From Styela clava (lineage: Eukaryota; Chordata; Ascidiacea; Stolidobranchia; Styelidae): 64,000 nucleotides of DNA. A program made the position numbers and the translations under genes. This document shows positions 25,171 to 63,848 of this stretch, piece by piece; within the stretch, counting starts at the first letter, position 1, and each line of letters begins with the position of its first letter. Where the stretch lies: the NCBI RefSeq assembly GCF_964204865.1, contig NC_135260.1, positions 8,742,001 through 8,806,000 on the forward strand, written 5' to 3'. The notes beneath the pieces were generated by a model, which saw only the letters and a program-made list of their open reading frames with translations, ran no database searches and was not told where the DNA came from.

Positions 25171-25535
25171 ACAGAAGTTATAAAGTAAGAAGAACATGAT
25201 AAATTACATACTGGTAGTTAAAAAAATAAATAAAAATTACTTGCCACACCATATTAATAAATTTATAATGTTTTCCACTGCCGATTTGATCGATTTTATA
25301 AATGGGAGTGAACAGTAAAGATGAACTTTAATGAAAAATATATTGCCATGCTGAATATAGATGGGGTCAATTGCCAAAAATTCCCAACCAAAGTTGCTAG
25401 GATTGGGTGCATGAAGAGGTGGGCTAGAGTTAGACCACTTAATTCCCTAAACTAGATCCTATTATTGCCAAATTATAGTCCAGATTGTAATAAGTATTTT
25501 AGGGTACCAGTAACAGTATAAGTAAGTATAATTAA

Positions 25536-27722: not shown

Positions 27723-28280
27723 TTAAGGTAGGACGATAGGGTATAGGACTATGTTCGTTACCAAGGTTATAAGTAAGGGTGTTTTTCATATTCATACTTA
27801 GATATTGACTTCTGCAAGGATAAAGGAATTAGTATTGTTATTTCACAGGATCTTTTTGAATATTTTGACGCAATTGATGTCAATTCAAATTTATCATGGA
27901 TGATACATCAGCCTGCGAATTTTGTTGACGTAGACACTATTTATATTCAATAAGCTAGCTGTTGAATTGATCATCACGAAACGACCTGAAAAACAGAAAA
28001 TAAATCTGCGAGTAGAATATTCGAGGTTTACATATTAGGAAACAACACTACCCTACACTTTTGTTGAGAAGAAATTATTATTTTGAGTAGATATTGATCA
28101 TTAGTTATTTATCTTTACAACGCTAGTTGGAAGACCTGAGTTGAATTCTGATTGGGACACAGGGTAAATGTCTCGAAAACCATGCAAACCCTCTCAAACC
28201 ACACCAACCATTCGTATGTTGGCCTTCACGATAACTTCACAGCAGAACTTTAACCTAGGATAAAATTTTAGGACCTCCTG

Positions 28281-34067: not shown

Positions 34068-34184
34068 TAATTGCCAGATATATAATTATTGAATTACGAT
34101 ACCAATAACAATAATACTGAGAAGCTTGAAAATAGGAAATATAAAAGGTCGATGTATTGAATAGCCTACCGTACCTGTACAAAT

Positions 34185-34459: not shown

Positions 34460-35220
34460 TACCTGTACTAATACCTCCAGTACTAGACTACTGTACTACC
34501 AATTTCTCCTCATTCCTGTTTTTTCGTGAAATTCCCTTTTGTTGCCGTATTTTAGGTTTGGCAGTTTCCCTGCCATTCCCACTTTTTAGTGCACTTCCCT
34601 CTGTTCCCCGCATTTTAGCGTTACCCTGGTCACCTGGTGACGCGCGGCATTTAAAATAAAAAGTGTGATTATCATCAAATAAAATTTTAGATTTTTTTGG
34701 AAATGAACTATCCAACATACGGTTCCATTATTCCTGCACCCACGTACCATACATTGGGCCTTACTACTTGCTACAGCGCGAAACACCGCAAAGAGCGCGA
34801 AACAGCGCAAAACAGGAGACGCAGTTATTACCACCTCCCGCCACGAAGTAACAAGTTAACTATGAAAGAACCATGGATTTATGGCGCTATTTCTGGTATA
34901 TTTACAAGGTTATGTACCGAATTCTAGGTCATCATGCAAAATTTTTCTACTTTTTTTTTATCTAACCCTGAAGCCAAATCAATCAAATCTGTATACATAT
35001 AGAAAATGTTCTAAATTACGGTACCCAAAATGTGTCACCAGCGGGGGCAGACCTGCCATTACAGCCTACATGCATTGGTTTGTGTTTTTTGCTGCCGTGG
35101 TACCCCAACTCAAAAAAGGTGCCCTAACTCATTGCAAATTTTTTTTTTCTGCTTTTGCGCTGTTTCCCTATTTTTTCCGCTGTTTCCCTCTGCTTTGCGC
35201 TGTATTCAGTAAGTAGTGAG
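34460..35220. repeat. Inverted-repeat element with CGCGAAACACCGC motifs
   Basis: Motifs CTTACTACTTGCTACAGCGCGAAACACCGC near 34758 (shown in part: ACAGCGCGAAACACCGC) reappear inverted near 35150-35218 (GCGCTGTATTCAGTAAGTAG). TTCCCTGCCATTCCC and TTTCCCTCTGC tracts lie near each end. It is probably a non-autonomous DNA element. A fragment of the same family interrupts the array before IQCB1 at about 52845. Confidence 0.5.
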
Positions 35221-35241
35221 ACCGCCGTACATTTACACCCA

Positions 35242-44111: not shown

Positions 44112-46225
44112 ATACGTATTTCTTGAAATTGTTCAAATAATAATAAAATGATTAACTAATATCTGAATATTAAAATAAGGTACTTATTAGCACATATAAA
44201 ACATTGATTGGCAATAGATAGAAGAGTGGTATTTGGGTGTATAAAGGTGTTTTAGTCAAAAAGGCTATTTTCATGTAAATGCTGAAATGACAAGAAAACT
44301 AAATTTAAAAGAAAATGTTGATAACAAAAGTGCAAAGAATACTCCTGTTATAATATTGTTCCATATATTATAGCTAGATAATCTAGTTTTTCAGTTTTTC
44401 AATTTTGTATAAGCAATACCAAATCAGAATAATCTCTGTCATAAGCATCATAAAAAAAATGTCAGACTTGTTTTTCAATCATTAATATACTGATATATAC
44501 AAATGGTTAACTTTGGTCTAATAGCGATAAAATGTTTAACTTACTGACTTAGCTTAAAAATCTTTAGATTCAATATGCCAGTATTCTTCACTTTCCAGAT
44601 TTCTGACTTTGTTTAATGGACAATTTTTCTATGTTGGTCAAGTTTATTGATGAAGAGATTTATGCAATTTTATAATTTGAACAGCATTTTATTAAAGCAT
44701 GTTGAGAAGCCATCGTAAGGTTGTAAAGCCATCAATTTCACATATTTTCTACTGCTTTGTCAAGCAGACAAGGATTTTTTTCATACAACATTACATGCAA
44801 TGTCTGAATTTTGAGAAGCTGAACTTTAATATAAGAATATGCTGAAATGTTGGCAGGGTAAACACGTTCGATCGATGGTGGTAAACAGGTCGAGGACCAA
44901 ATATTTTTGGAGGCTTCACGGAATACGGTACACAAGATATACAGAGATAAGACGCTACTGTCTGACTGCAGAACTGTAACCCAAACCAGTAAATCCGGTA
45001 CCGTAAATCCTGGTTACTCAGTCCAGCAGGCACTTTCCTGATAGAACATCCCCGGAATATATCGATTTCCATAAAAACAGGTGGCGTAGATCAATAAATT
45101 ACGCTGCCACATATTGTTTCCAACCTATATCCCGTATATTCAACGGTGAATTGCAACACCAGTCGTACACAAAGACTTCTGAGCAAAACGTAACACATGC
45201 AGCATGTCTTTGTTTACCAAGTCATATGTTTGTGCATGTGACTATACTGATAACCAATCATCAACACGGTAGGCGGGGCGTTACACTCTGTGAGCACGAA
45301 TCGGAACCAACACACCTTCGCAACACCCCACACATACGCCGTTTAAAATCTCTTTGTCTAATGACTTTTGCTTTGTTTGTCACCTTGTGATGCATTAGAA
45401 ATGTTTTAGTTCACATTACCTTTTCGTCATATTCTCACGAGGTTTATGGTATTTTATACCCTAAAATAAGTGTTAAAATTTCTTGCCGATAAGGTTAATG
45501 TTGTTTTGAGCCAACTTATTTTACCTGTTTATAGTATCAATACTGTACACAAATTTTAATGAATAAGTGAATGATTTACCAAATGGATTTTTGTGTGATT
45601 CAACTTCGCGACAACCATTCTAGTGAAATTTGTTACAATAAATGCGATGATATATTTTCACATATCAATTAAATTAATCAAACTGTATTGTGCTTTATGA
45701 ACCGAAAAATTCTTGTTTAGTAGAGCCAATGTCATTGCTCAGACAGATCTTCAAGCGTGGTCGTAAACATTACCTCGTTTTCGCGTTTTTGAACTCTATT
45801 CGTTAGTTTTCACTTGTGTTTCGGAAACTTGAATATAAATCAGATAATTCAATGATCACTCTGTCTTCCTCGGAGTTTTAATTTAATTGCAGTAATAAAA
45901 AATTAGGGTAGAAATAGCTGTGATGGACTGGGCTAAAATTTATTACCGGTACTTTTAAAAAAACAGATTGTCGTATGCGATGAATCATAATGATGGTTCG
46001 AAACACATACCCCATTTTACAGGCGCCAACTCGCAAAATCACTCTTAAAATACCCCTGAAAATTTTGCAATGGTAAAGTATAGAAAGAATTTCATGGGAG
46101 TCAAAGTGACTCCGGTGTGAGGATAAAAAGACTCTGGTCAGCGAGGGCAATAAAATTTCAAAATAGCCATTAGAGATATGGCTAGGGATACGGCAGGTAG
46201 TACGGGAGCGGTAGCTTTGGCGGGC
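44112..46225. other. Region upstream of FBXO25/32
   Basis: Contains the promoter and perhaps a non-coding first exon of the F-box gene: an AG acceptor (ATTTCAAG) sits eleven bases before the ATG. No other coding sequence is supported; the 65-135-codon minus frames at 44738-45072 and 45878-46285 lack family resemblance. The latter part runs into the palindromic element. Confidence 0.4.
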
Positions 46226-46298
46226 TGACGGACAACTCACCAGAGACAAGTCAAAGATAAATAAAGCACAACCGGTGTATAGCAAAACGATATAATTT

Positions 46299-46340
46299 GC
46301 CGACGTTTCGAATTTCTATTCAGAAAAACTTCATCAGGGC
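46299..46340 (-). ncRNA. Hammerhead ribozyme motif of Penelope element
   Basis: On the minus strand the conserved core is complete. Stem I GCC is followed by CTGATGA, a stem II hairpin (TTTCT/AGAAA closed by GAAT, with two U-U mismatches), GAAAC, the cleavage triplet GTC and stem I' GGC. Stem III is minimal, as in Penelope hammerheads, which may act as dimers. Location 3' of the GIY-YIG remnant fits the known position in such elements. Confidence 0.8.
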
Positions 46341-46487
46341 ATGATATGAAGAGTAAGTACACTATCATATATATATAGAGTAAAAAAATAAAAAAGATAG
46401 TAAAAATTAAACGGCGTGAAAAACTGAAAAAGGGACAATATCATAATAGATCCGGGTGAATAAGCGCAAGTTCAAACAATTACGCGA

Positions 46488-46649
46488 CTATCTAAACAAT
46501 GATTTATATACATGCGGGAACAATGTAGTATCTTTATCGTTCATTGAATTTTTCTCTTTGTTGATATGATAAGATTCGAGAAATAGTCTTTTTCTGTAGT
46601 GAATTTCATGTTCCAATATCCTGCTGTTATCCCAATCAATGCTGTGTGC
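46488..46649 (-). pseudogene. Penelope GIY-YIG endonuclease C-terminal remnant
   Basis: The minus frame from 46649 to the stop at 46488 reads AHSIDWDNSRILEHE, then RKRLFLESYHINKEKNSMN and a final PHVYKSLF. The HxIDWDN...IL..E....R...E...I....N..N pattern is the C-terminal signature of Penelope-like element proteins, downstream of their GIY-YIG endonuclease. Everything upstream, including the reverse transcriptase, is lost. Confidence 0.82.
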
Positions 46650-47888
46650 AGAGACAACTCGACTACCTAGAGGCCTGGTGAGTTGTCCGTCTTTTGGCAT
46701 TTTCTACGGTGGTGTTTTTTGTCTATAGAAATGCGTTTTTGGTAATTTTAGTGCTCAAATGTTGAGAAAATACATAAATATGCTCTAGAAAGCATTTTTA
46801 TTTGTATAAGTGGCTTATTTTGATCATGTTGTATGATACAAACACAGTCTACAGACGAAATTGGAGTACGGTAACGTTAGCGAAGTTAGACTGTTGACTT
46901 ATAGGACTGTGTTCGTTTAATTTTTCGAACTTTATTGGTATTAAATGAGCACCTTTAAATATATTAAAACCTTTATACTTCACAGTAACACTCAAATAGT
47001 TATAAATGTGAGCTCAGTAGTCTATGGTTGCAGTAGTCTAAACTCGCCTACGGCAGACGCCCGAGAGGCCGTCAACTCACCAGTCGAGCAAACGCTCTGC
47101 GACGTGACGTCATCGATGCTCGAGGTGAAGACAACTCGACTACCGAGCAACGAGAGGCAGACAACTCACCAAGTCGAGCAATCGCTCTGCGATATCGATG
47201 CTCGAGGAGAAGACATTGCGCCATGACAAAAAGAAAACAAAATCTTCTATCCATTAAATTTCCCCATAACGTTTAGTATTCAAATATCACATTAAATTCA
47301 TTAATCGTAACAAAAAGTAAACATCTTTTATACATTCTTCGGCCCAGTTTCTTTGCCAGGCACAGCGACAGTGCCTATCTGTTCCTGGTTTTCTTCTGCA
47401 AAAAGAAATTCCAACTCTATGACTGAAACCTTGCCGTGGTGAGTTGGCTTACAACTAATATCAGTCGGCACTAAGTAAATGCTATGCAACTCTTGAGTCT
47501 GCGTTTTGCAAAGCAATGTCTTCTCCTCGAGCATCGATATCGCAGAGCGATTGCTCGACTGGTGAGTTGTCTGCCTCTCGTTGCTCGGTAGTCGAGTTAT
47601 CTTCACCTCGAGCATCGATGACGTCCGCTCGCAGAGCGTTTGCTCGACTGGTGCGTTGACGGCCTGTCGGGCGACTGCCGTAGGCGAGTTTACACTACTG
47701 CAACCATATACTACTGAGCTCACATTCATAAATATTTAAGTGTTACTGTGAAGTATAAATGTTTTAATATATTTAAAGGTGCTCATTCAAAACATTTAAT
47801 ACCAATAAAGTTCGAAAAATTAAACGAACTCAGTCCTGTAAGTCAACAGTCTAACTTCGCTAACGTTACTCCAATTTCGTCTGTAGAC

Positions 47889-48233
47889 AGGACAGGATAG
47901 GATTTACGTATTTATCCCGAGGGAGAGGAAAGCCGATAAGACGGCTTATCCATATGGCGAACCACGGCCTCTCGTCTGGTTACCATTTCAAGTCGGGTAT
48001 GGGATTAGTTTTACTGTATTGTTTGTTTTCGGAAGCATGGACTTGGTGGTGGAGGAAGCCGTAACCGACCAGCGGTTACGTGAACCACCCAACGACGGCG
48101 AGGAGTCCAGCAATCCTCTCGCACATAACCATCCCTGTATGGGATTCGAACCTGCGAACCCACGCAGAGTAGTTAGAGGTGCGGTGGCGAGCGTATTCCT
48201 AACGCTTAGCCCGTTGAGCCACACCGCCGCGCC
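47889..48233 (-). mobile_element. tRNA-derived SINE
   Basis: On the minus strand the head starts GGCGCGGCGGTG. It has an internal RNA polymerase III promoter: box A TGGCTCAACGG (48211-48221) and box B GGTTCGAATCC (48142-48152). A tRNA-unrelated body follows, with a tail containing GGATAAGCCGTCTTATCGGC. The tail matches 63849-63938. It interrupts the right arm of the palindrome. Confidence 0.85.
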
Positions 48234-48531
48234 TATTCATACAACATGATCAAAATAAGCCACTTATACAAATAAAAATGCTTTCTAGAGCATATTTATG
48301 TATTTTTCTCAACATTTGAGCACTAAAAATATCAAAAACGCATTTCTATAGACATAAAACACCACCGTAGAAAATGCCAAAAGACGGACGACTCACCAGG
48401 CCTCTAGGTAGTCGAATTGTCTCTGGTGAGTTGTCCGTGTAGTCGAGTTTTCCGCCTCCCGCTTTGGCGTACGGTACTGGCGTAAGAGAGCTCAAAAATG
48501 TCGAAGAATGATAAATTTGAGGAATATAGTC

Positions 48532-50086
48532 CAACTGTGGGCAAACCGCGGCTCACGAGCCGCATGAGGCCCGTCCGAGTTTTCTGCGGCTCTTCTCGCT
48601 AACATTTAATATTATCCAAATGTAACTTAAGAGAAACTGTAGTGTAACATTTTTTTAAATTTATTTAGCGGTAGAAGCAATTTTCATCAATGATTAGGAC
48701 AAATTATGTTTTAGTATGAAAATCGTTGTGTCGTGGAATTTTAAATCAGTCAAGCAACAAATCTTACGTCACAATGGTCAAATTGTATGTTGCTGCGTTG
48801 GCTGCATCCTGCATTGTAGCTTGATTGTGGTTAGTCTCAGTTAAAGTGCGATATGTTCACAAGTAAGGAGCGAAAATACGAAGATGAAAACAGAGTTGTC
48901 AAGTCAGAATGGAAGAAGAATACGCATTTATTCGTCAAGAAAATAAATCTTTGTGATTGAACTCTCATATGGCTGCTAATTCATAATAAAGTCAGCAATG
49001 TTGATCGGCACCGTGGAACGAAAAGAAAAATGGTAAAACAACAAAAAGAATCAAGTCAAAAATTATGGATACAAAATAATGCTAATGAATTTGATTATGG
49101 AGAAAAATGTACAAAATGGTTTTTCAAAAAATTAAAGGAAAAACATGAAAAGTGCACAATAGAAAAAATGAAAGATAAGAACGGCAATTCCTTCAATAAC
49201 TTGAAGGAAAAGTTGGAAATAGGGAAGGAATACACAAATTTATATAAAAAAAACGTGAAACAAACAAAAAAGAGCAATTACTATTTCTAAACGCCTTGGA
49301 AAAAAGCCTAATGATGAGGGTGCAATTGAGATGAACTCTAAAATAACTATGGAATAATCTAAAACAACTATGAACTAAGGATATATGACATTATTACATA
49401 AAATCACAGATTCAGTAGTTTTGGTACGAGATATAGTTTCTGAAGCGGAAAGAGGCAATAGTAAATCATTTTTGGTATCGTTGGATTTTGAAAAAGCATT
49501 CGATTCTGTCGATCTGCAGTATAAGTATGAAGTATTAAAAAAAATTGGTTTCAAAAATAAAATAATTAGTGTAGTAAAGGCAATGCAAAAAAATGAAAAA
49601 CTGTATTATCATCAATGGTGGAATAAGTGAAAGCTTTACTATTAAAAGAGGGGTCAGACAAGGTGAACCAGTAAGTTTATATTTATTTATAATAGCAATT
49701 GAGCCATTAATAATATCAATACAAAGAAACCAGAAAATAGAAGGAATAATGATACCTGGGAATATTGAAATAAAAGAAATAAGAGATTTACCGACAATAT
49801 AACATTAACACTGAATAAGAAAACATCATTGGAAATGGCTATGGAAACAATAGAAAAATTTGAACAAGCAACAGCCAACAGCAATGAAATTGAACAAAAC
49901 AAAAATCATGAAATTGGGATTACAAGAAACACTGAGCGCTTTGAACATGAATGAAGTTGAACAAATGGCAGAATGGAGAAAAGAATGGACAAAAGATATG
50001 GGAGGATATGATTTACTGGACATACCGTACCTGTATTTATGAAATATTCATGATTATAAAAATAAAAAAAATTTTGCCCACCCCTG
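48532..50086. mobile_element. hAT-like element ends around a LINE fragment
   Basis: Left end CAACTGTGGGCAAACCGCGG with GCGGCTC hairpins, right end TTTTGCCCACCCCTG, an imperfect inverse. The 8-mers outside do not match, so the two ends may not belong to one insertion. A decayed LINE lies between them. Confidence 0.5.
49030..50042 (+). pseudogene. Non-LTR retrotransposon (L1/Tx1-like) reverse transcriptase fragment
   Basis: Broken by frameshifts into overlapping pieces. 49030-49290 matches the region before the RT (EKCTKWFFKKLKEKHEKCTI, then KDKNGN). 49385-49628 has RT motif A (SLDFEKAFDSV). 49593-49802 has motif B (KRGVRQGEPVSLYLFIIAIE). The catalytic YADD position then reads FTDN in a third frame, followed by a K(M)LNKTK(I)MKLG block. 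No ORF1, endonuclease or poly-A tail is visible. Long dead. Confidence 0.8.
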
Positions 50087-50129
50087 GCAATATACGATGG
50101 TAATTATATTGGATGGTGACAATTAATAC

Positions 50130-50245
50130 TGTACCGGTACCGTACCTAGGGCTAGGTATAATATTTTTTTTACATAAGTTACTTGTTTCAACACATATTA
50201 GGTACTAAAAAAAGTGAATCAAGCAAACATACCGGTATCGTACAT
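50130..50245. repeat. GGTACCG simple-repeat island
   Basis: Short stretches such as CCGGTACCGTACC near 50131-50146 and ACCGGTATCGTAC near 50231. Confidence 0.5.
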
Positions 50246-50780
50246 TACAGTATTGAATGTACCGATTTCAGATGACTAACGGTTACGATTTTTTTTAACC
50301 GTTAACTGACATCTCAGGTACAAATCATCTTCATACCGTACAATTTCTTCAAGTATGATTACGTCATCGCAAATTTATCTCTTGTGGCATTTAATTCAAA
50401 AGAATATTACTAACTGTGTGGGTAAGGACTCAATAAATGTGAAAAATAATGGCAGTACCAAGATTGCTGATTATGGAAATTTGACAATGATGAATTCAGA
50501 ATCGGTTTTCGGTCAATTTCCAAATATATTGTTCACGATTTCATTGCGAAATTGGATATTCAATGTCGTACAACAAGTGTGCAGTTGATGCCGTTTTTCT
50601 TTATATGATATATATCTCGAAGTAAAATTTGCATGTCGAACACTGAAAATTTGTCACATAAATGACATTCAACAATGGAATCGGGTTTTCTAAAATACTT
50701 CCACGTGCCCGAACCACGCTGCCTATCTCTTGCAGCAGATTATGAAACTATCTCGATGCGTGAATAATTAGGCTTCCCGC
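50246..50780. other. Intergenic, nothing recognised
   Basis: Includes a 77-codon frame (50355-50588, +) without family resemblance. No repeats resolved. Confidence 0.35.
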
Positions 50781-51969
50781 TAGGGTTGGATTATCCGGAT
50801 AGCGGTTAACCGGATATCCGGTTAACCAAGAGTTATTTTGCTATCTGATATCCGGATATTATTGTGACGGTTAACCGGATAATAGAGCGGTATAAATAAT
50901 GCATATGCGCATTAGCGATTTTTATATGTTTTGTTGAGTGGCGACTGACATCTCCCAGAGCATATAATAACAACTTTTTCCACTCTAATCTGCCTATATT
51001 TTAGCTTTCCGTAGAATGGTGGAGTGAACTTCACTATTACATCACAAAACACGCAGAACAAATATGATTATTGCGCTAATTAGAAGAGCTCATTCGCTTT
51101 ATAAAATTAGAATTGAAGTGGAGGTACAGTTTAAGCAAGACTAACTTAAACTAATTCAGTTGAATAGTATTGGTTGGGTGGGTGTGAGTTTGTTGCTTTT
51201 TTGTCGGGTGTGGCTTTTAGTTGTTGCGTGTATTGAAAGAACGCATTTCATCATGAAGTAAACCAGTATGAATTTCGAGGACTTATTTCACAATACTTCC
51301 GATTCCATGTAATCTGTGTAGCATTTCAAAATTTTGGGTACACGACTAAATATTATGTGCTTGCTTTTAACTTTGGTATATATGTTTTTTCAAATTTCCA
51401 TGTATCAATCGAATCAATAAATATACCAGCCGAAATAAATCTATTCTAAACTAATTGAACTTAAAAGCTTAAAGAAATGGTCATCGTGAGTCTGCGATAC
51501 TAAAATTTAGTACGAGTCAAAATTTAAAGAAAATATGCTCTAGACACAAAAAAACTTCCAAAAAATTTAACAATGAAAAAAAAGGAATAATATAAATTTT
51601 TACATAGTATTTGAATATGAGAAAATAACGTAGCAGTCGAGGGACAGACAATTAGGACACAGTATTTAAAAAAATGTTTCATTATATTATTCAGCTGTAC
51701 TTTTGTACGATTAGAGCTTGAATTTTTATTTATTGACACATGCAACATCAAAATGCACAATCATTTTTATTCGAGAAAAATAATACATATGTACGTATTT
51801 ACAATAGAACTGTGTGGTGGTTTCTAGTCAATTCGCCGCAAAAATCTTGTGAAATCGGTTCTCTGAAATTAGCGGTAACTATCCGGTTAACCGAATAGTT
51901 AAAATACGAAATACCCGGATATATCCGTTATCCGGATAGTATGAATTTTAGGTATCCGAACTAACCCTA
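50781..51969. mobile_element. hAT-like element with TTAACCGGATA-rich ends
   Basis: 1189 bp. The ends TAGGGTTGGATTATCCGGAT and (inverse) ...CCGAACTAACCCTA are followed inward by repeated GGTTAACCGGATAT motifs. Flanking 8-mers CTTCCCGC (50773-50780) and GTTCCCGC (51970-51977) match at seven positions. No transposase. A relic of a related element lies at 52262-52333. Confidence 0.8.
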
Positions 51970-52139
51970 GTTCCCGCTGCTTGTCAGCAGGGAACCTATT
52001 GTTTTCCTGTGTTTTATTATTATTTATTTATTATTATTATTTTTTCAAATTGGTCCTACAAACTTGAAATTCATCTCAAATGTGCAGAAGTTCTCAGCTA
52101 GCAATAAAATGCAAATTTTTTTTACGCGGGAAGCCTGTT

Positions 52140-52333
52140 AAAGCTGCAGGCAGCTCTAGTTTTAATAAGCGATACCGGTACCGGGATAAAAACACGCGAA
52201 ATTGCTTTATAAGCATTGTGACGTAACAAGCTGAAATTATAAATTATTACGTCAAACGTCACGCGGCGGTTAACCGGTTAATTATACCCGGTTAACGGTT
52301 AAAGTGTTTTCCCTGAAATTCCCAGCCCTAACC
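52140..52333. repeat. Relic of a second TTAACCGG element and a GGTACC patch
   Basis: A GATACCGGTACCGGGA patch near 52170 is followed by GGCGGTTAACCGGTTAATT, CCCGGTTAACGGTTAA and CCCAGCCCTAAC, one terminus of an element akin to 50781-51969. Confidence 0.55.
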
Positions 52334-52733
52334 GGTACTGATGTACGGTATGCACTACTTTTATTGCAAACTCCACTCCAAAACTGACTACATATATAAT
52401 ATATAGACGTTAAGGTTTTAAGCATTGTGATACTGTGATATAACGTTGTTACACCGGGACCCGTGTTTGCGAGTAGTGTATACAGATATAGCATAGCTGT
52501 GTGTGTCGATGTGAAAACACACAATAAAGTGGAAACATATTTGTGCTGTCATTTTATTTCCGGTACCGGTACTGAAAACAGTTCTCAGGGAATCAAAATC
52601 GGGCAATGCAGTCATGAACAGGTTTTTCAGTATTCCGACATTGAATCATTATTTGGAGAAGGATGCTTTTTAAACGAACGTCTGAACGTTATTAAAAGTC
52701 TGGGAGTACATGAGTGCTAAATTGAATCTTGTT

Positions 52734-53389
52734 GGGATTCAATTTAACATTTTATTATGTATGATTATTTCTGTATTTTCTTTGGTTTTAGATTTGTAAT
52801 AACTGAATAATGGCTGAACATGCTGAAAATGGGGTTTAAGGGGGTCTTACTACTTACTGAATACAGCGCGAAACACCGCAAAACAGCGCAAAATAGGTTC
52901 AAGGGGTTCAATTTACCATTTTATTATGTATGATTATTTCTGTATTTTCTTTGGTTTTAGATTTGTAATAACTGAATAATGGCTGAACATGCTGAAAATG
53001 AGGTTCAATTTACCATTTTATTATGTATGATTATTCCTGTATTTTCTATGGTTTACTTTTAGATTTGTAATAACTGAATAATGGCTGAACATGCTGAAAA
53101 TGGGGTTCAATTTACCATTTTATTATGTATGATTATTTCTGTATTTTCTTTGGTTTTAGATTTGTAATAACTGAATAATGGCTGAACATCTGAAAATGGG
53201 GTTCAAGGGGTTCAATTTACCATTTTATTATGTATGATCATTTCTGTAGTTTCTTTGGTTTTAGATTTGTAATGTAACTGAATAATGGCTGAACATGCTG
53301 AAAATGGGGTTCAATTTACCATTTTATTATGTATGATTATTTCTGTATTTTCTTTGGTTTTAGATTTGTAATAACTGAATACTGGAATA
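52734..53389 (+). repeat. Tandem array of the IQCB1 start region
   Basis: Five upstream copies of a unit of about 100 bp precede the real start. Each carries a pyrimidine tract ending TTTTAG, then ATTTGTAATAACTGAATA, then ATG and GCTGAACATGCTGAAAA. The ATGs lie at 52810, 52979, 53081, 53178 and 53285; spacing is 97-107 bp except the first (169 bp), which holds a small CGCGAAACACCGC insertion. The real IQCB1 ATG at 53390 is the sixth. Each upstream ATG opens only a short frame (9 to 28 codons). Confidence 0.92.
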
Positions 53390-55240
53390 ATGTCTGAACA
53401 TGCTGAAATTGTAAAACTTGCTTCATCTGTCTCAGAAGCCAAGGATAATGATATTCCAGTTCATCTTATTAAAATCAGGGCACTCCTAAATCAATATCCC
53501 GAATTCAGCAAAGAGAGGCAGTCACTGAAACAGGATATATTGGAGTATGATCTACTATCGTGGTGTTCTGTTGTTCTCAAATTTGACTTCATGAAAATGA
53601 AGGATGGGTTTCGCACAGCTGTTTCAATAATTGATATCCTATTTGAATGTTGCATTGGACTAAATCTCAATGAATCTCGAGAATTTTTAGAGGAGGCCTT
53701 ACCTGATTCCATTCAAAGTGCTCTCCTTATTGCATGGCAAATTCAGCAGAGGTTTATGGAGCAACATAAATTATATGGTGCTATCAAATATGGGGTACAT
53801 GCTGAAGAACTAGCAACTCTTAAAACTCAATATCAAACAATAACTGAAGCGATAATTAAAGTTACAACATCACATACATCTTTAGTTGACATATTGCTGA
53901 AGTCGGACAACCTGATTAGGTTACTCATTGAAGAAGGGCTTGAAGTTGAGATGATGGTAAACACAGCACTCAGCATGGTGTTGAGAGGCATTAGGATGAA
54001 TCCATTAGCTGTTAAACAAATGCCATCTGTCGCATTGAATCATCTGCTCGATGAGCTTATCTATAAAGTTACAACTTCAAGTAGTGATGAGTTGGCAGCA
54101 TTAACAGTAAAAATAATAGTTGCCATGGTTGATGCAGATTCTGAAATTGCAAATAAATTATCAGTGAGATTCAAAGGATTGAAAGCTCTAATGACAAGGT
54201 GGCTTGGTCATGGTTTTGATCGGATATTACAGAATTTAATTGCAGTGTTGGATGCCGGAAATGCTCAAATTGCTGAATTGGCGAGAAGAACACATGCAGT
54301 TAAAACTATTTGGGCTGCTTATAAGGGCTGGAAAATCAGATCAAGAGTTGGAAAGTTGCATAAAGTTGTTCCATCGCTTCAGAGTTCATTTCGAAGGAAA
54401 CGTCAAAAAAAACTTGAGTATGCATTGAGGGAAAAGTTGGAAAACGAACAAAGACATGCTGCAGAGATGAAAAGAAAACAATCTGTGCGTTCAACTCGAG
54501 AAAAGCAATTACAAATGCTGGAAATTGTTCCTGCTAATAAAGTGAATAGCCATATTCAAAAAGAAGAAGAAAAGGCCGCTGTTAAAATTCAAACGATATG
54601 GCGGGGGGCATCCCAGCGAAAGCAGTTTGCAAATAAACAATACATTCATCATGCCAGTAAGGCAGCAATTGTGATTCAACGTGCTGTAAGAAAGTTTCTT
54701 GCCAGAAGACAAAGCATGAAGAAAGGCATATCACAGCCTTTGACTGTGCAAACCAAGCTAACTAAGGAAAAGAGGGAGGAATTGCAAATGAAAATTGACC
54801 AGAAGCAGGCAGTGCGTGGCACGAAAGAGACCTCCCTTTCCGAGGCCAAAGAAATTCATGAGAAAACTCAACAAATGTTGTTAGCTTATCATGCAAAAAA
54901 TGTACAGAAAATGAAATATGACGATCCAAAATTACAAGCACTGTTGGCAAAATTAAAAACAGAGCAAGAACTTCTTCAAAACATACCAAGTCTTCATGAG
55001 GCAACATCAGATTTTGTTGATAGTTTGGCATTCAACTCCAATGTTGTTATAGTTGCTGCTGAAAACGAACACAAAAGAACTTTGAGGGAATTGACCTCAC
55101 AGTGGTGGCAAAAATTATCACTGAAAACTGGTGAAAATCTCAATCCATTTGACGACAAAAGTAAACCAGTGAGCGAGGCAGAAATGCAGGAGATTGAAGA
55201 GTTTTTGAATCCAACATTAAATCAGGATGTTTTGTTTTGA
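53390..55240 (+). CDS. IQCB1: IQ calmodulin-binding protein B1 / nephrocystin-5, intronless
   Basis: 616 residues in one exon. The N-terminal half (1-300) is helical and repeat-like and matches the family, with a KQDILEYDLLSWC block. Three IQ motifs follow: about 303-322 (AVKTIWAAYKGWKIRSR), 396-415 (AAVKIQTIWRGASQRKQF) and 425-445 (AAIVIQRAVRKFLARRQ). Between them are QSSFRRKR and STREKQLQMLEIV, both IQCB1 hallmarks. The C-terminus has a coiled-coil segment, PSLHEA and QWWQKL, as in the human protein (598 residues). In vertebrates nephrocystin-5 binds calmodulin and CEP290 and acts at the centrosome and ciliary base; its loss causes Senior-Loken ciliopathy. The ATG at 53390 is chosen because it is the only one of six array copies that continues into the open frame. 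The UPF0561 gene follows on the same strand after 874 bp. Confidence 0.94.
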   Translation: MSEHAEIVKLASSVSEAKDNDIPVHLIKIRALLNQYPEFSKERQSLKQDILEYDLLSWCSVVLKFDFMKMKDGFRTAVSIIDILFECCIGLNLNESREFLEEALPDSIQSALLIAWQIQQRFMEQHKLYGAIKYGVHAEELATLKTQYQTITEAIIKVTTSHTSLVDILLKSDNLIRLLIEEGLEVEMMVNTALSMVLRGIRMNPLAVKQMPSVALNHLLDELIYKVTTSSSDELAALTVKIIVAMVDADSEIANKLSVRFKGLKALMTRWLGHGFDRILQNLIAVLDAGNAQIAELARRTHAVKTIWAAYKGWKIRSRVGKLHKVVPSLQSSFRRKRQKKLEYALREKLENEQRHAAEMKRKQSVRSTREKQLQMLEIVPANKVNSHIQKEEEKAAVKIQTIWRGASQRKQFANKQYIHHASKAAIVIQRAVRKFLARRQSMKKGISQPLTVQTKLTKEKREELQMKIDQKQAVRGTKETSLSEAKEIHEKTQQMLLAYHAKNVQKMKYDDPKLQALLAKLKTEQELLQNIPSLHEATSDFVDSLAFNSNVVIVAAENEHKRTLRELTSQWWQKLSLKTGENLNPFDDKSKPVSEAEMQEIEEFLNPTLNQDVLF

Positions 55241-56114
55241 TTTGCACTTTAATCAGAAGTTTAGTAAGTAATATAGCAGTAATTAGCATTCCATTGCGAA
55301 CACAACTGTCAATTGATCATGAAAGTTTTCTAATGTGTTAATTCTGCACTTTTCAATATTTTGCAATTTGATTACATCGATGAGCGTTACTTTGCTGGAA
55401 ATCAGGGAAATAACCATTGCTCTATTTTTCAAAGTAGATGACTCTGCTAAATGACTGATGACAATCTGTTTTGATGTATTCAAACAAATAATTTTTACGG
55501 TCGCATTTATCACTGTTTTTTGTATTTAAGTCGATGTGGTGAAACGAAAGTAGCTTATGACCTATTTTTCACAAGTGAACTTTTTTGATCTTCCATTCAA
55601 ATGGGCCAGGGGCCATATTTTCGTCTAGGACCTAGACCCTAGGTTTTAAAGATTCACCTGATTTAGTTTTGCATTTAGGTAGTGCCTAGTGTAGTGTCCA
55701 TTTTTAGGTTTGAATGTACAGATTTGAAAATTACAAAAAATGTGATTCTTCACGACTTTAAATGTGACATAAGCAGCGATAAAAAGAGAAAAGTAGAAAA
55801 TGATCAATACTGATTGCAAGTCTGTTACCGGTACATTTTGGGTAAATATTTTGTATTGCCTTTTATGTTTTTGTACGTAGAAATGGGAAAGTCCAAAATT
55901 TTATACAATTTTTTTTACATCAATGGGTTGGGTTTTCTTCGATTGGTACATCTGTAATTTTCGTTTTGTTAATTTATAGTTTATATTTTCTTTCCAAATA
56001 TTCTTTCATATATTTTTCTACTTGCACACATTTTCAACTAGTATATGACTATTTATTTTTAGCATTACAATCATATATGATTCTGATATACGACATATCT
56101 AAGATATATATATC
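55241..56114 (+). other. IQCB1 3' flank and UPF0561 gene 5' region
   Basis: Unique AT-rich sequence. A GGGCCAGGGGCCATATTTTCG patch with CTAGGACCTAGACCCTAGG lies near 55600-55645. An ATATATATATC run stands directly before the next ATG. No repeats or other genes were seen. Confidence 0.4.
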
Positions 56115-57263
56115 ATGGATAAAAATAGCCCAGGATTGGATATGAAACATGGATTTATTCATCATATCAGAAGAAATCAAATGAAAAGGTCAATTTCATT
56201 TTTAATTTGAATTATTAGAAGTTACATATAAAAACACACCTAGTGGTTGTTTGAGATTTCATAATGTTGAAAACGACAAAAATTATGGGATAATCAAATA
56301 TTAATGTGTACTCCCAATACAGATTCATTTTATCCCAGAAGTTATTTTGAAATAGAATAACAATAATTTTCCGCTCTTTCTTAACAGGGATGAGTATGAT
56401 AGAAAGATCAAATCAGATTCCTATAAACCAAAAATGGACAAAAGTGATTCTCAAAAATATCCTGACAAGAAAGTGAGTTTGCCTTTTTAGTATTCCAGGT
56501 TCCTAAAAGCAAGTTCGTGAAGCAAATGAATTTACACTAAATGTTATTTGAAAAAACACTTCTGCCAACAACACTTCTGCCAACAAGAATTTGTTGGTGA
56601 CCATCTCTGAATGATGATTGTAAGATTGCAATCATGATTATATAGATGACACATAGGTGCGCATTTTATAAATGGAAGAAGTATTTTAACTCCGAAGCCA
56701 ATCTTGGATAAAATCTATTCATTACTTTTGATATGGTCATGGAAATACGTTTATAAACGTCCTGGCGCCGGTGGGGATTTTTATCGAAGAAAGTTGCATT
56801 TAATGTTAAAAAACGGTTCGGTGAAAGCCAGGATAATAATGCACTCAAAAATCACCATTCAGAAAAGCATCAGTTTCAAATACTCAATTTGAACTACCGG
56901 TACATCTTGTGTCGTAATGTTTTAGTTTATTTAATGCATTCAGCAGCATGTTAGTAGTTTTGATCATAGTGTTGATTATTTCTTAAACAGGTTTATCGAC
57001 CCAAACCTGCTAGGAGCAATCATCGTGATCAAGCAGAAACACTTGATGTACCTCATAAGATAAATGGAACTGGGAAGCTTCTTTATTATCTGGAATATAC
57101 AGACAATGGGGGCTGGGTTCACAAAGTATCTGTTCATCGTGATGACAATCCCAAAGAATTAGCAAAGCGCCTCGCTGTAGCTGCTAAAATTCCAAATGAT
57201 CTTCTTGAAACATTGGAGTGGAAAATCCAGCAAGATATTGCCAAGCGTGACACGAATCAGTGA
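56115..57263 (+). CDS. C2orf68: UPF0561 family protein (C2orf68-type), 3 exons
   Basis: Exons 56115-56188, 56388-56472 and 56991-57263; phases agree and the product is 143 residues. The first exon has the family signature LDMKHGFIHHIRRNQMKR, continuing into exon 2 with DEYDRKIK. Exon 3 holds the conserved C-terminal part, with LLYYLEYTDNGG, HRDDNPKELAKRLA and IQQDIAKR. Function is unknown in any organism, and the name follows human C2orf68. The first donor (AG/GTCAAT) is weak but preserves the Arg codon at the junction; the others are standard. The human protein is somewhat longer (about 166), the difference lying in the basic linker encoded by exon 2. Confidence 0.9.
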
Positions 57264-57869
57264 TGAAAAACTATCCGCCCCTTATGTCACCATTTTGATC
57301 TGATTTCCAAGTGTTATTATTGTGCCTAATTGATTGATTGCAGTCAATTTCAGAACATTATTGAAGGGCTAGTTGCACTGTGCCATAACGTATTGATTGT
57401 ATGCTAAATTTGATACTGGTGACCTCCATTCAATATATTAAAAAAGACCAGATGACTTCAAATCAATTAAAATATTTTTTGACCCATTCTCACTTAGTTG
57501 TTTATGACGTATGTTTTTTCATGCTTCCAGTATTTGTAAGTCTTTAGATTAATATTTAATGATCTTGACCCAAACTGAACTATGTATATAATTGACACAA
57601 CAGGTGATTTTGAAACTACCAGAATAGTTGGAACTGCTCAATTTCTATATTTTTTTTCACTGTGAAGCTGCTTTCATTTGTATTTACCTATATGATTTTA
57701 TTACATTATAATTTTGCGTGGGATGTGCTTGCAAAGGCTATATATATATATGGTCATTAACTTGTTCAACCAATTTCGTATTTTGTAACATGAATTTTAT
57801 ATTTTAGGAATTTCCGCAGATCTCGAGAGTTTTCTATTTATACTAAAAAGGAAGCACTACTAAGAAGTA
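57264..57869. other. 3' flank of the UPF0561 gene
   Basis: AT-rich 3' UTR-like DNA. An ATTAAA variant polyadenylation hexamer lies near 57467. A short TATATATATA run at about 57740-57751. No other feature. Confidence 0.4.
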
Positions 57870-58815
57870 CCTTATTTTACGGAACATAAGGCGCACTTTG
57901 AATTCTTTATTTTTCTCAAAATTGATCGCGCACCTAATCCTATCTCTTATGTATGGATAAGGTGTGCTTTTATTGCCTACACTCAAAACCACTGAAGCCA
58001 TTTGATGAGCGATCGGGCTTTTTGAATTTAGGCAAAATGCTATTAAACATTTTACTGCGCACTAACACGAATGTATTTCTGACATAGATGTATAACAAGG
58101 AAAGCTGGTTAAGGTAGTCATGCGTAACCCCAACTGATAGAGACATTTTACAACTGACGCTTTTTAACAAGTGTTGCAGTTGCGGTTAAACGTTACTCAA
58201 AACATTTAACGACTAACGCATTTTCACATTATCGAAGTTACGAGATGCAATTTAAATGTGAAACGACTAGCGCTTTGCAGCAGCTCATTAATCTTCAGTC
58301 GTTAAATGTTTTAAGAAGCGTTTCGCATAACTTCAATATTCAAAAAGCGTCAGTCGTATGACGTTTAAATAGCATTTCACCATAACTTCCTTGTTAAAAA
58401 AAAAATGTCCGTAATTGATTGTGTAAATTGCATTTCGCCGTAACTTCGATACAATTAAAAGCGTCAGTCGTTGAACGTTCAGATGTCACTTCCCCGTAAT
58501 CGTTAATATTCGATTTCACACTGAAGTTGTTAGTTTATGGGTTACGACGCGAGACTTAGCCTTGTTGTCTTATGCTGACGAGTTTGTAGGCGTATAATAC
58601 TGTAAGGGTGTTGTTGCCAGGGATGAATTGACCATTAAGAAATATAAAGACGTGTTTAGGGCACCAAAGAAATTACATAGGCGAGTTCTCATTGTGCACA
58701 ATATGATTGCAGATGCAGTAAAATTCGGACATTTGAGCACTTTTTTAAATTCTTCTCGGCCGCAAAATTTAACCCTAAATTCCGGAATTTTCCGGACGGT
58801 ATGGCAACCCTAATG
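57870..58815. repeat. Composite repeat: AAGGCGCAC element and decayed tandem array
   Basis: 57870-57965 has TTTACGGAACATAAGGCGCAC and an inverse-like GGATAAGGTGTGC. 58150-58530 is a degenerate tandem array with a period near 80 bp, built from AGCGTCAGTCGT, AACGTTTAAATAGCATTTC and CCGTAACTTCGATA. 58620-58812 ends GGAATTTTCCGGACGG...GGCAACCCTA, a DNA-transposon terminus. Motifs at 58640-58680 recur at 28930-28980. Confidence 0.55.
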
Positions 58816-59083
58816 TAAAGTGTATTGATATCATTGCTGTATAATTATTTTCATAAAACTCCCTTGATGCATTCTGTTACCATCCACTTCTTATTTGAGG
58901 TTAATAACTGCTTTGGTTGGAAACTCGTGATTCATTTCGTCCTGAATTCAGATTATTATATTGTACAAAGTGTACATCAAACTCTTCTAATGGCAATTGA
59001 TAATATTTTGGTCTATTCCTACTAAATCAACCAAATTCATATCTTATCGATCATAATCTTGCTAACATTTCTAATTATTTTTG

Positions 59084-59180
59084 GGACCTCCTGAAGTATG
59101 CGCACCAGTACCAACCAGTATGTGTGTACCTGTTATGATTCAGGTTGTGAGACATCTTGGAACGCATACTTCTGGAGCAC
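59084..59180. repeat. Small hairpin related to the 28.3 kb palindrome
   Basis: GGACCTCCTGAAGTATGCGC at one side and GAACGCATACTTCTGGAGC at the other form an imperfect inverted repeat. The sequence matches the centre of 28281-28684. Confidence 0.65.
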
Positions 59181-59776
59181 CTATTTTTGTATATGCCACC
59201 TACATGCAATATTAGGTTTGATGCTATACTATCTTAGTTACCTAAAACTGCTCAGTTTGGAATGCAATTTATATTAGAGGGCCCTTATAATCTAATCCCT
59301 TATATGAACCATGTGTTTCACAGTGGAAAATATTTTTTCTGCTTGCAATAATGAAATGGATGTATAGATTTGGCAATTTTTGCTGCTTTCATCTCCAAAG
59401 TGTTCATTTTACACATCCAATAATATATTGCAAAAATAGATATGGATTCTGGATTATCCTGATTTAGTTTGTCCCAGCTTTGTCAAAACTTATTAATAAT
59501 TCACATTGGTTTAAATTCGTATATGTCTATTACTGTTGGGTGGGTCTAATTATTGTATAGAGTTACAATGCCGCACTGCTAGATTCTCATTTCAATGCTT
59601 GTGATGTGCGGATTGATCAGATTTATCTGGTGCTCAGTTCTTATTTTATTTTATTTAATCAAGTATAAATATGTTATACCTATAAATAAATTTATCATCT
59701 ATTTGAACAATTTCCCTACACTAACAAGAGTCTAGCTAGACCAAAGCGTGTATATAATATGGTCTAGAGTCTAGAC
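59181..59776. other. Intergenic, nothing recognised
   Basis: AT-rich DNA with no open frame above about 60 codons and no repeat termini. Confidence 0.35.
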
Positions 59777-60080
59777 CACTGGTTCTCAACCAGTGGGCTA
59801 TGGCCCACAGAAAGATTTCCAGGTGGGCCACAGAGCTATTGAAAATTGCTTATTTCATTCGTGTCACTATCGTTGACATTGATTGTAGTACTAATGATTT
59901 ATGATGCTGTTTTCAGGAGTGGTAATTTTCATTCTAATTAATAAAGGGAAAGTGTCAATTCTCGCAGAAAGATCTTGATTTTACTTGTTTTTTTTTCCTT
60001 GCAACAAAAAGGTATTTGGCCACAAGAATATTTTTGGCAACAAGAATGGGCCACGAATGAAAAAAGGTTGTGAACCACTG
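59777..60080. mobile_element. hAT-like MITE, 304 bp
   Basis: Ends CACTGGTTCTCAACC and GGTTGTGAACCACTG, with GTGGGCCACAG and AATGGGCCACG subterminal motifs. Flanking 8-mers GTCTAGAC (59769-59776) and GACTAGAC (60081-60088) differ at one base. Confidence 0.82.
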
Positions 60081-61230
60081 GACTAGACCAATCTTAATTC
60101 ATCCACTTTCTAATCAGGTTTTGTTTTGTACATAGTGTACAGAGTTTCTTATAAACCGAGAGTGTGTTAAAAAAGAACCTGTTTCTAAGTCTAGCCGACA
60201 TATATAAGTAGGTTACGCCACTTTCCATCACAGTGTCGTCAGTCAACACACTACGAACCTTAAGCTGTCGTCGAAGTGCAGCTTTCTGTCGTTAGCGTTA
60301 CGGTACCCGCTCTTGTCATTTCGTACCGTACCGTGAAACCGGCTAACTTCGGATGATTTCACTATATTTTGAACAATATCTCCGCCGCATGTTGTTCAAC
60401 TGAAGCCAAATTTGGAATATAATACATTGTGGCTATTCTCGTCTTGATAAAGTCGGTTCCATATCCATCAAAGCCTTTTTTCATTGAAATTATTGTCTTT
60501 ATTCGTCTATTCTAAAATTATCTAACTTAGGATGGCCACTTTTCTCTTTGCGTCAACTCGTGAGAGAGAAATGTCTGCGTAAGCAATGACGCGTGACAAC
60601 GTCGCCGAATAGACCTTACGCCGCCACGACCTGTTTTGCGTGTTGCATACTGACGTTTGTACGTGACGTTACTCTTGCCGCTTCGCGAAGCTTAACTATT
60701 TATTCTTGTGTCCGTTATTATAACTCGTATATATTTCACTAACTACTCTTTATTTATTGCAAAATGCTAGTTCGTTCTTTTATGATCGTTTATTTTCAAT
60801 GCAAGAAAAGGAGTAACAAAACAAAAAAACAAAACGGAGGAATTGAAAGTACCTAACACTGGTGTAGGTTGAAATTGAAATGCAATATGGAACAAGTAAA
60901 GAATAAACAAAAATTAGACAATTAAAAATAAACGGATGAATCGAATGAAACACTGGCAAAAGTAAAAATTGAAATCAAAAAGCAATATGGAACAAGTAAG
61001 GTATGAACAAAAATTCGACAGTTAAAAATAAACAGATGAATTGAAGGAAACGCTGGCAAAATCAAGAATTGTAATCATTTCCACATGGGTTAGACGGGTC
61101 TTTGCAACAGTTCTTGTGGAACCAATGTGTTTCGCTGCAGCTTTCGCAACCGACCCATTCATCCTCAATTTCCGTACTTCCATTTGGATCATTCCATAAT
61201 CCACAAGCAGAGCAGGTTTCGTCTTGATTA
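60081..61230. other. Flank of the pogo-like transposase
   Basis: No coding sequence supported. Contains a GGTACC patch near 60301-60330 and two similar blocks of about 80 bp in direct orientation (60860-60940 and 60965-61050, GAAATG/CAAAAAGCAATATGGAACAAGTAA...), a local duplication. A 70-codon minus frame (61022-61234) lies downstream of the transposase and is not recognised. Confidence 0.4.
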
Positions 61231-62588
61231 TCACTTTTCTGATTTTCTCAGAGCTCCCCGTTGATCGGCTCGGCAGAGGTTCCTGCCCGGTGTGACTTTC
61301 GATCCTCGCTTTCGTTTCACTTGACTTGTGCTTGTTGAATGTAAAGATTTTAAATAATTAATGAGAGTAGACGTAGCCTGGTCGTTCATTACCTGTCTAT
61401 TGACGTCTGAAGAATGAAATTCGTGAGGTGGTAGTTTAGACAACACCGCAGTGGGGTTAAACGGGTGGATCCCACAAACTCGGAATCCCGATTTCAGATT
61501 TTGGGCAGATGTTTCGGCCGATTTTTGAAAAAGTTTTTTTAATAACAAAGGGAAATGTTCTTTCGGGAAACCACGAATTCGTGATTCTGCTCTCCAGTCG
61601 GCTACTATTTTTCGCCACTTTGCTTTGAGTGGGGAAAAAAATGAACAATCGAGAGGCTGGAGTATATGAGTGCTGTTGGGTGGCAGGCACGTAAAATAAA
61701 CATTGTGTTCATCCGCTAATTCAACAACCTCCATGGTTAAGTGCGATGACAAATTATCACCTACGAGCATTTTGTCGCCGTCTAGTTTGCCACAATACGG
61801 GAGAAATACCTTTTTGAACCAGCGGATGAAGGTTCTGGTGTCAAACCATCCGCTGGTGTTGCGTCGTATATTGTCCCTTCAGGCCCATCGGTGGTCCAAT
61901 CAATTGTCCAATACTCGTAGATGTTTAGTGCGGAATAGACAGCCATAGGGGGCAAAAGGCTTCCAGCGGCAGATCCACAAAACATGATAGATATCGAGCT
62001 TTTTGAGAAATCTCGAATCATCTCAACTCTATTTGTACCGGTTGGAACTAATGAACGTTTTCTGCCCGGATCGTCACGAAGATTCGTTTCATCGTAGTTG
62101 AAGATGTTCGTTGCAGGTAAACGCATCACTATTTCTTTACTCTCGTTGAAGTAATTCACTATTTCCTCTGACCCCACGGCTGCACGTGCTCTTTTAATGT
62201 TTGAGGCAACTCTTTTGGATAACCGCTGCCTTTTGCAAAAATTATCCACCCACATCGGGCCGGGTTTGTTGTTGGGGAACGTAGGAGAGCTTATTCCCAT
62301 TGCATCCAAATAATTTTTGACAATGTTGCACATGTCCTCCGGTCCAATGGGATATCCCCAACGTGCAATGATTTCGAGGCTATTAGCAAATCGCTTCTCC
62401 TCTTCATTGGTTAAACCAGTCGGGCGACCAATACTTTTAGTGTGAGTCTTCTTCATTTTGTCGAATAATGTCGACCTTTTCACGGCATTGCGTTTAGCTG
62501 CTTTCGCATACGACATCCCTGCTCTAACATCAGCCATAGCCTTTTGCAAGTCCTCGCTATTGCAGGAGTTGTAAGTTCGCTTTGGCAT
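61231..62588 (-). pseudogene. pogo/Tigger-like DDE transposase, one frameshift
   Basis: The first frame (62588-61782) starts MPKRTYNS with a psq/HTH-type DNA-binding region and a GRPTGLTNEEEKRFA block, then the DDE core with FNYDETNLRDDPGRK (Asp166). The second frame (ending 61231) continues with GDNLSSHL, CLPPNSTHILQPLD and RVCGIHPFNP, all of the pogo/Tigger superfamily. The frames overlap near 61855; reading through shows the family GWFDTRTFIRWFKK segment in the shifted frame, so one base appears lost. With that exception no stop interrupts about 450 codons, suggesting recent activity. Flanking inverted ends were not found. Confidence 0.87.
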
Positions 62589-63848
62589 CGTATTGATAGA
62601 TCAGATTTAATGTGTTCACAGGTAGATAGATAAAGTCAAATGACAATAAACGGATAAAAACGGCAAAAAGAAACTTCGCCACTTTTTTTCATTTTGCGCC
62701 TCACCTGTATGTGGTCCAACCTCCTGCTGTGTGCATCTATGTAGAGTTCTACGCTCACCTGTTAAAGATATTATTATCATCTGCCGATCGTAAACAGACA
62801 TATCTAATCATTATGATCGTATAGATACATGTTTCAGGCCTAACGTATTACCAATTGCTACGGTATCTATCGGTGTCGGAGGAAGTATGCAAAAACAAAA
62901 ATCGACAAATTTCATATGCATTAAGCGTATGCATACCCATATTTTTAAATAAACAAAATATGACTGAGACGATAGTGATGTTTTTGTAGGAATTAGTGAC
63001 TAGGATCATGGATAAGCATAATTTTTAAATTTCACAAAACTGGACGCCGCGATGTCTGGCGTTCAAATGTCGCAGCGAGTAACGCACGAGCTACGCAAAG
63101 TGACGTCGGCTACGAAGAGAGAGAAAGGGATTTGCGTCGTTGACGTCACGCTGTACGTAATCATCAAAACGTCGATATTTTGATGTAATTTTTAAATCTT
63201 TTTTTTTTTTTTTTTTTTTTTTATTGCATTTCATAAAATAAAACAATATTGCAATATAATTGCAATAAACAGTATCAATCAATAAATAATACATCACAGT
63301 AATACATAACAATATCATGGCAAATCATTTAGATTTTGATAAATTATTGCAGTAAACAATATTAATAAATAAATTTTAAATCAAAATAATCGATTTCACT
63401 CGAATCTCGTACGACACCTTGTGATCACTGTATTTTTTTGTATACATTGTGTACGCTATCTAGCGCTTGGCGGTGATTTGACGAAGGTAGCGTCTGTAGA
63501 AGTCACGATTTGAGCCGCTCGAAAAAACGGTGTCATTCTTTTGGTAAAATATGATTTTTTGAATGATAAAAAATCAAATCGAGCGATTGGAGGCTACGGC
63601 AGATTCAGATATGTAAGGCCTTACTATAGAAACCGACAGAAGCGCAATACGACGAAATTTAGTTGAGATATGAATGATTGCTTGGTTGAAAAAAGTAAAT
63701 CCACACAGTAAGTTTCGATTGAATTTCTCAGTCTTAATCCGGACACAGAAATCAAAGGCTGCACACAATTTGCGGTCTCCCTAAAACCAGGCACTTGCGA
63801 ATTCAGGCACTTTTTCAGGCACCATTTCAGGCACTTTGATATTTTTTA
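62589..63848. other. Intergenic, low-complexity and unrecognised
   Basis: Upstream side of the transposase pseudogene. It includes a run of 24 T (63199-63222), an A/T-rich stretch after it, and TGACGTCA-like sites near 63101 and 63142. No gene or complete transposon end was seen. Confidence 0.4.

Follow-up and report, generated by a model that had tools for sequence, protein, structure and literature searches.

Introduction

Tandem repeats in front of a coding region are known from human DDX3Y. Its minisatellite MSY2 comprises tandem units of ~100 nt upstream of the start codon and is located within an alternatively spliced 5' untranslated part of the transcript. Its authors propose translational control (PMC3039753). 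The array described below has both the unit length and the position before a start codon in common with MSY2. In contrast to this array, MSY2 lies 885 nt upstream, a transcription start site is found there in testis, and copies of an acceptor or a start codon are not part of the repeat as described (PMC3039753).

A second group of related systems is provided by alternative trans-splice acceptors in Ciona and Schistosoma, where several acceptors precede one coding region (PMC11155486, PMC5832876). Three acceptors were found in the outron of the Schistosoma transcript Smp_079840 (PMC5832876), and mapping in Ciona yielded 56,126 acceptor sites (PMC11155486). There, the acceptors are not described as tandem copies each accompanied by a start codon. 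Furthermore, they concern trans-splicing, which would be only one possibility for the array presented here.

In leaders controlled by upstream open reading frames (uORFs), upstream ATGs and short ORFs precede the gene. The same would apply to our array if it is kept in the mRNA. Unlike in those leaders, the uORFs of the array derive from duplicates of the start of the gene itself and would be lost from an mRNA spliced at the last acceptor. The 5' leader of Ciona htt is likewise a short leader with upstream ORFs and a splice at its 5' end, but two unrelated uORFs, demonstrated trans-splicing and no repeat are reported for it (PMC1636649). All components of the array, i.e. minisatellite leader, alternative acceptors and uORFs, are known. 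It is a variant of these systems and does not represent a new kind.

Six copies of a gene start

The window (the whole 64-kb stretch of DNA that was analysed) contains at 52733-53408 six head-to-tail copies of a ~96-bp unit, computed directly with TRF, a direct-repeat search and an exact 15-mer. Each unit consists, in this order, of GGGGTTCAATTTACC, a T-rich tract, TTTTAG, the leader ATTTGTAATAACTGAATA, an ATG and the following codons as far as CTGAAA:

52733-52828, + strand: U1, left-most copy, with the unduplicated left flank; AG ends at 52791, decoy ATG at 52810, ORF of 9 codons
52837-52896, + strand: dispersed-repeat piece between U1 and U2, ~82% like 34756-34805 (+) and 35173-35229 (-)
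52902-52997, + strand: U2, equal to the consensus over the core; AG ends at 52960, decoy ATG at 52979, ORF of 27 codons
52999-53099, + strand: U3, two substitutions, 5 additional bp before TTTTAG; AG ends at 53062, decoy ATG at 53081, ORF of 28 codons
53101-53195, + strand: U4, 1 bp missing after the ATG; AG ends at 53159, decoy ATG at 53178, ORF of 19 codons
53206-53303, + strand: U5, two substitutions, 2 additional bp in the leader; AG ends at 53264, decoy ATG at 53285, ORF of 28 codons
53305-53408, + strand: U6, the gene copy, leader longer by 8 bp, ATGTCT instead of ATGGCT; AG ends at 53363, start codon at 53390
53390-55240, + strand: IQCB1-like gene, 616 codons, a single open frame without introns; IQ motif PF00612

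TRF called an array at 52903-53385 (period 97, 4.8 copies, score 773), and the direct-repeat search recovered all six copies. Together, both results exclude a chance origin. This means, the locus is a minisatellite-like tandem repeat in which a single unit recurs head to tail. An exact 15-mer, TTTTAGATTTGTAAT, was located six times on the + strand of the window (starting at 52786, 52955, 53057, 53154, 53259 and 53358) and not once on the - strand.

The initial annotation had reported six ATGs at distances of 97-107 bp and once 169 bp. These spacings were reproduced: The unit ATGs at 52810, 52979, 53081, 53178, 53285 and 53390 are 169, 102, 97, 107 and 105 bp apart. Only the last ATG was said to enter the gene, and indeed the sixth one opens the 616-codon IQCB1-like frame. 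The nearly identical ATG context held for all six copies, except that the gene copy reads ATGTCT vs. ATGGCT in the other five. A leader and about seven codons had been assigned to each unit. About seven codons are in fact common with the gene, but the decoy ORFs extend to 9-28 codons. Between TTTTAG and ATG, the leader measures 18 nt in four of the six copies, 20 nt in U5 and 26 nt in U6.

The IQCB1-like gene and its neighbourhood

We take the frame 53390-55240 to encode IQCB1 (NPHP5). Pfam revealed one family, the IQ motif (PF00612), and identity to two stretches of human IQCB1 amounts to 34% over 117 and 41% over 143 residues. IQ motif and human similarity thus both agree with IQCB1. A PDB search yielded no match for the protein, so the name, already given in the initial annotation, is provisional. 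The first 1001 bp of the gene have one matching place in the 376.6-Mb assembly. A search of the genome contigs for IQCB1 relatives gave 20 pattern matches, none of which was confirmed.

Downstream of IQCB1, a UPF0561 gene begins at 56115 on the + strand (PF10573, E 2e-14; exons joined by eye). Agmatinase-like exons with ordinary introns and an arginase family match are located at 4585-5967 on the - strand (ORFs assigned by eye). Neither Rfam matches nor tRNAs were found in the 64-kb window. Two further long one-exon frames encode a bromodomain protein, presumably BRD8-like (1129-2868), and a fukutin N-terminal/LicD protein (32616-34085). Both are intronless like IQCB1, though the agmatinase-like gene has introns.

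The window also harbours remains of mobile and inverted elements. At 49379-49799, upstream of the array, reverse-transcriptase-like letters in two frames (RVT_1 in two members; position read by eye) represent retrotransposon debris. Two adjacent - strand ORFs at 61231-62588 with DDE_1 and HTH_psq correspond to a pogo-like transposase in pieces. Inverted arms were observed at 46649-48425 (46847-47219 with 47513-47888, 92%; 46649-46836 with 48237-48425, 97%), and the inverted copies 25532-25858 and 27402-27726 are 94% alike over 329 bp.

Origin and growth of the array

The derivation of the units from the gene's own start was computed directly. The array is a young tandem duplication of the 5' end of the IQCB1-like gene because its copies differ by few private changes. 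In alignments read by eye, the core of each copy equals the consensus apart from such changes: one substitution in U1, none in U2, and in U6 one substitution and 8 additional bp. The changes particular to U6, the translated copy, are a leader longer by 8 bp and a T instead of G following the start codon. Across 89 core sites, any two copies other than U4 are separated by 1-4 substitutions, with 0-2 indels in addition. Comparisons involving U4 give 4-6 differences, as no gap was opened for the 1-bp deletion close to its end. The two unduplicated ends of the array are formed by the left flank of U1 and, at the gene itself, the right flank of U6.

At the junctions between copies, CTGAAA is joined to ATGGGGTT. 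A doubled GGGGTTCAA is present in the linkers after U1 and U4 and absent from the other linkers. Such unequal linkers speak for growth in several steps. Within the 169-bp interval between the first two unit ATGs lies a ~57-bp fragment of a dispersed repeat that is present twice more in the window. This fragment is ~82% like each end of a ~470-bp stretch (34756-35229), the two ends being inverted relative to each other. The stretch is MITE-like with similar inverted ends (ACAGCGCGAAACACCGC...), and a third copy of its end is located inside the IQCB1 array.

An assembly artefact, in which the assembler multiplied or merged copies, is very unlikely, as private changes in five of the six copies and a foreign piece in one linker are unlike the mechanical duplication of one copy.

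Tandem arrays with a period of at least 60 were detected by TRF at three loci in the 64-kb window and in seven rows from 200 kb of samples (7500 positions of these were N). Two of the sample rows had at least four copies, and both were long satellites. Since tandem duplications occur frequently in this genome, one could have hit a gene start by accident. Separately, the small contigs G000:C379 and C378 were seen to carry a short tandem satellite that is open in several frames and is not mitochondrial. What is unusual about the IQCB1 array is its content: Each of the six copies carries an intact predicted acceptor together with an intact start. As the array is so young, intact sites are no proof of selection.

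Candidate acceptor and donor sites

Candidate acceptors were scored with a simple, untrained matrix. The resemblance of each unit to a 3' splice site, proposed in the initial annotation, was borne out: All six copies carry an acceptor-like site of good score (4.67, 4.67, 3.91, 4.67, 3.27 and 4.67 for U1 to U6 with this simple matrix). By the same matrix, the scores of the six unit AGs are equalled or exceeded by 1.3-2.6% of the window's AGs (6141 in total, counted on both strands), and they are the only + strand AGs in the top 5% within 52400-53420. Comparison acceptors taken as real cis sites in two neighbouring genes scored 0.09, 2.67, 4.13 and 8.2. An equal or better acceptor within 30 nt was found for 46 of the 2453 other ATGs in the window. 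The acceptor of the gene copy U6 is no better than the decoy acceptors.

Top-7% donors within 51800-53420 are located at 51875, 52343 and 52348 only. Between 52349 and 53420, donor scoring revealed none at this cut, which is strict, as two of five presumed-real donors (scores 0.26 and 0.36) fall below it. A cis donor near the array may therefore exist. A 33-nt intron inside each unit (from TTAT/GTATGA to TTTTAG) was considered and rejected due to its poor donor score (-1.28) and very short length.

Start codons and upstream ORFs

The region 52710-53334 contains 29 ATGs, all before the gene's own start, and no ATG is present in 53334-53389. As computed from the sequence, splicing at acceptors 1 to 6 would leave 26, 21, 15, 10, 6 and 0 ATGs, respectively, upstream of the gene start. 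If kept in the mRNA, the upstream ATGs would act as uORFs, in agreement with the initial annotation; the decoy ORFs comprise 9, 27, 28, 19 and 28 codons. All six unit ATGs have an A at -3, and position +4 is G in the five decoys and T in the gene. Judged by these positions, the decoy starts are predicted to be in a better context than the real ATG.

In the leaders of U1 to U5, all three frames are stopped just before the ATG, and one of the stops overlaps it (TAATG). Consequently, upstream ORFs end at the next start. In the U6 leader, one frame is unstopped, and a 22-codon uORF (53329-53397) overlaps the gene start. Based on the upstream ATG counts, the uORF beginning at 53329 and the ATG-free stretch that follows, the gene is probably translated efficiently only from transcripts that begin downstream of 53333 or are spliced at the sixth acceptor. 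No other functional conclusion from the sequence is as firm as this one.

Cis- or trans-splicing

The partner of the six acceptors could be provided in cis or in trans. The assembly was searched with a 16-mer of the Ciona leader, allowing at most one mismatch, which gave 28 + 105 places (controls 17 + 27). The first 100 of the 133 were examined, and among these listed matches there was no Ciona-type leader gene; the two exact matches among them are not followed by GT. ATTCTATTTGCATAAG, which has one mismatch to the Ciona leader and is repeated dozens of times on contig C3, was considered as a spliced leader array. It was rejected since it forms the spacer between tRNA genes of an array and lacks a donor: G000:C3:24907000-24914600 contains nine copies together with 20 tRNA matches, and TTGATG or a similar sequence follows the 16-mer.

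In 264 kb (the window plus 20 samples), one of 11 ORFs of at least 200 aa has an acceptor this strong within 60 nt of its ATG, and this is IQCB1 itself. Acceptor-marked gene starts are hence not general in this sample. In T as well as in G+T content, the array exceeds all other stretches of its length in the window (1 of 1268 segments of 629 bp reaches its values). Partly, this reflects a T-tract counted six times, and the repeated T-tract alone may suffice. According to published reports, Ciona outrons are rich in U and G+U, about half of the Ciona genes are trans-spliced (PMC11155486), and single-exon genes are common in Ciona operons (PMC2760879). An operon with an upstream host gene was considered here, too. 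It was discarded, as a Pfam scan of 61 ORFs of at least 60 aa chosen from 44741-63845 returned only RVT_1 (two members) and two weak matches.

Functional interpretation

In our best explanation, to which we give an even chance, the output of IQCB1 is lowered by competing acceptors with decoy starts. Competition among the six acceptors, tuned expression and variable copy number, as put forward in the initial annotation, would be possible. A segment of ~96 bp, which begins ~25 bp before the T-rich tract and ends with codon 7 of IQCB1, would have been duplicated head to tail recently and in several steps, yielding an array of six. We infer that a pre-mRNA might begin upstream of or in the array and be spliced at one of the six nearly equal acceptors, with either a far upstream exon or a spliced leader donated by a separate RNA as its partner. 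Use of the last acceptor would generate an mRNA with a 26-nt gene-derived leader and without upstream ATG, from which the protein could be synthesized. Splicing at one of the other five or no splicing would retain the decoy ATGs in their better context along with short ORFs, and this mRNA would be poorly translated. The array would thereby lower IQCB1 output, and its copy number could set the level. Among the observations that speak against this explanation are the poorer +4 base in the gene copy and its acceptor, which scores no better than those of the decoys.

The main rival is a neutral passenger, which we regard as possible but somewhat unlikely. In this view, the duplication did take place, but the five upstream copies are irrelevant, since transcripts either begin within 53334-53389 or are invariably spliced at the last acceptor. 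The occurrence of other arrays with a period of at least 60 in the window and the samples is consistent with this alternative, as is the lack of ATGs in 53334-53389. The T-rich tract and acceptor are identical in U1, U2, U4 and U6, and selection is not needed to explain this in a young array. However, a transcript start downstream of the acceptor would leave the strong site located 26 nt before the ATG without an explanation.

A more far-reaching form of acceptor competition would be a copy-number rheostat. Each unit would add an equal acceptor and a decoy start, and both the share of the last acceptor and the amount of protein would fall stepwise and vary between individuals. This appears doubtful, and in a spliced-leader animal a later splice could rescue the decoy-spliced RNA. 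Likewise doubtful is an unspliced long leader, in which the whole array is kept in the mRNA, at least five uORFs repress and ribosomes reinitiate at the gene. The stops in all three frames just before the ATGs of U1 to U5 and the TAATG overlap would suit reinitiation. By contrast, with 29 ATGs before the gene and the 22-codon uORF (53329-53397) across its start, hardly any protein would be expected from such an mRNA.

Alternatively, the repeats might act as DNA, i.e. as promoter or enhancer minisatellite providing start sites or factor binding, like MSY2 before DDX3Y. In MSY2, three to four copies of the ~100-nt unit precede the start codon, and the second repeat contains the start of one testis transcript (PMC3039753). 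Yet at its distance of 885 nt, MSY2 is not described as duplicating the acceptor and start of its gene, and we consider such a function of the IQCB1 array improbable.

Perspectives

Should transcripts use the six sites, the array would provide a natural series of identical acceptors, each with its own start codon. It would allow testing how position by itself guides the spliceosome when acceptors are equivalent. Furthermore, it would show how a single tandem duplication over a gene start becomes graded control of translation. If the sites are unused, the array would illustrate how duplications of this type remain harmless thanks to an intact last copy.
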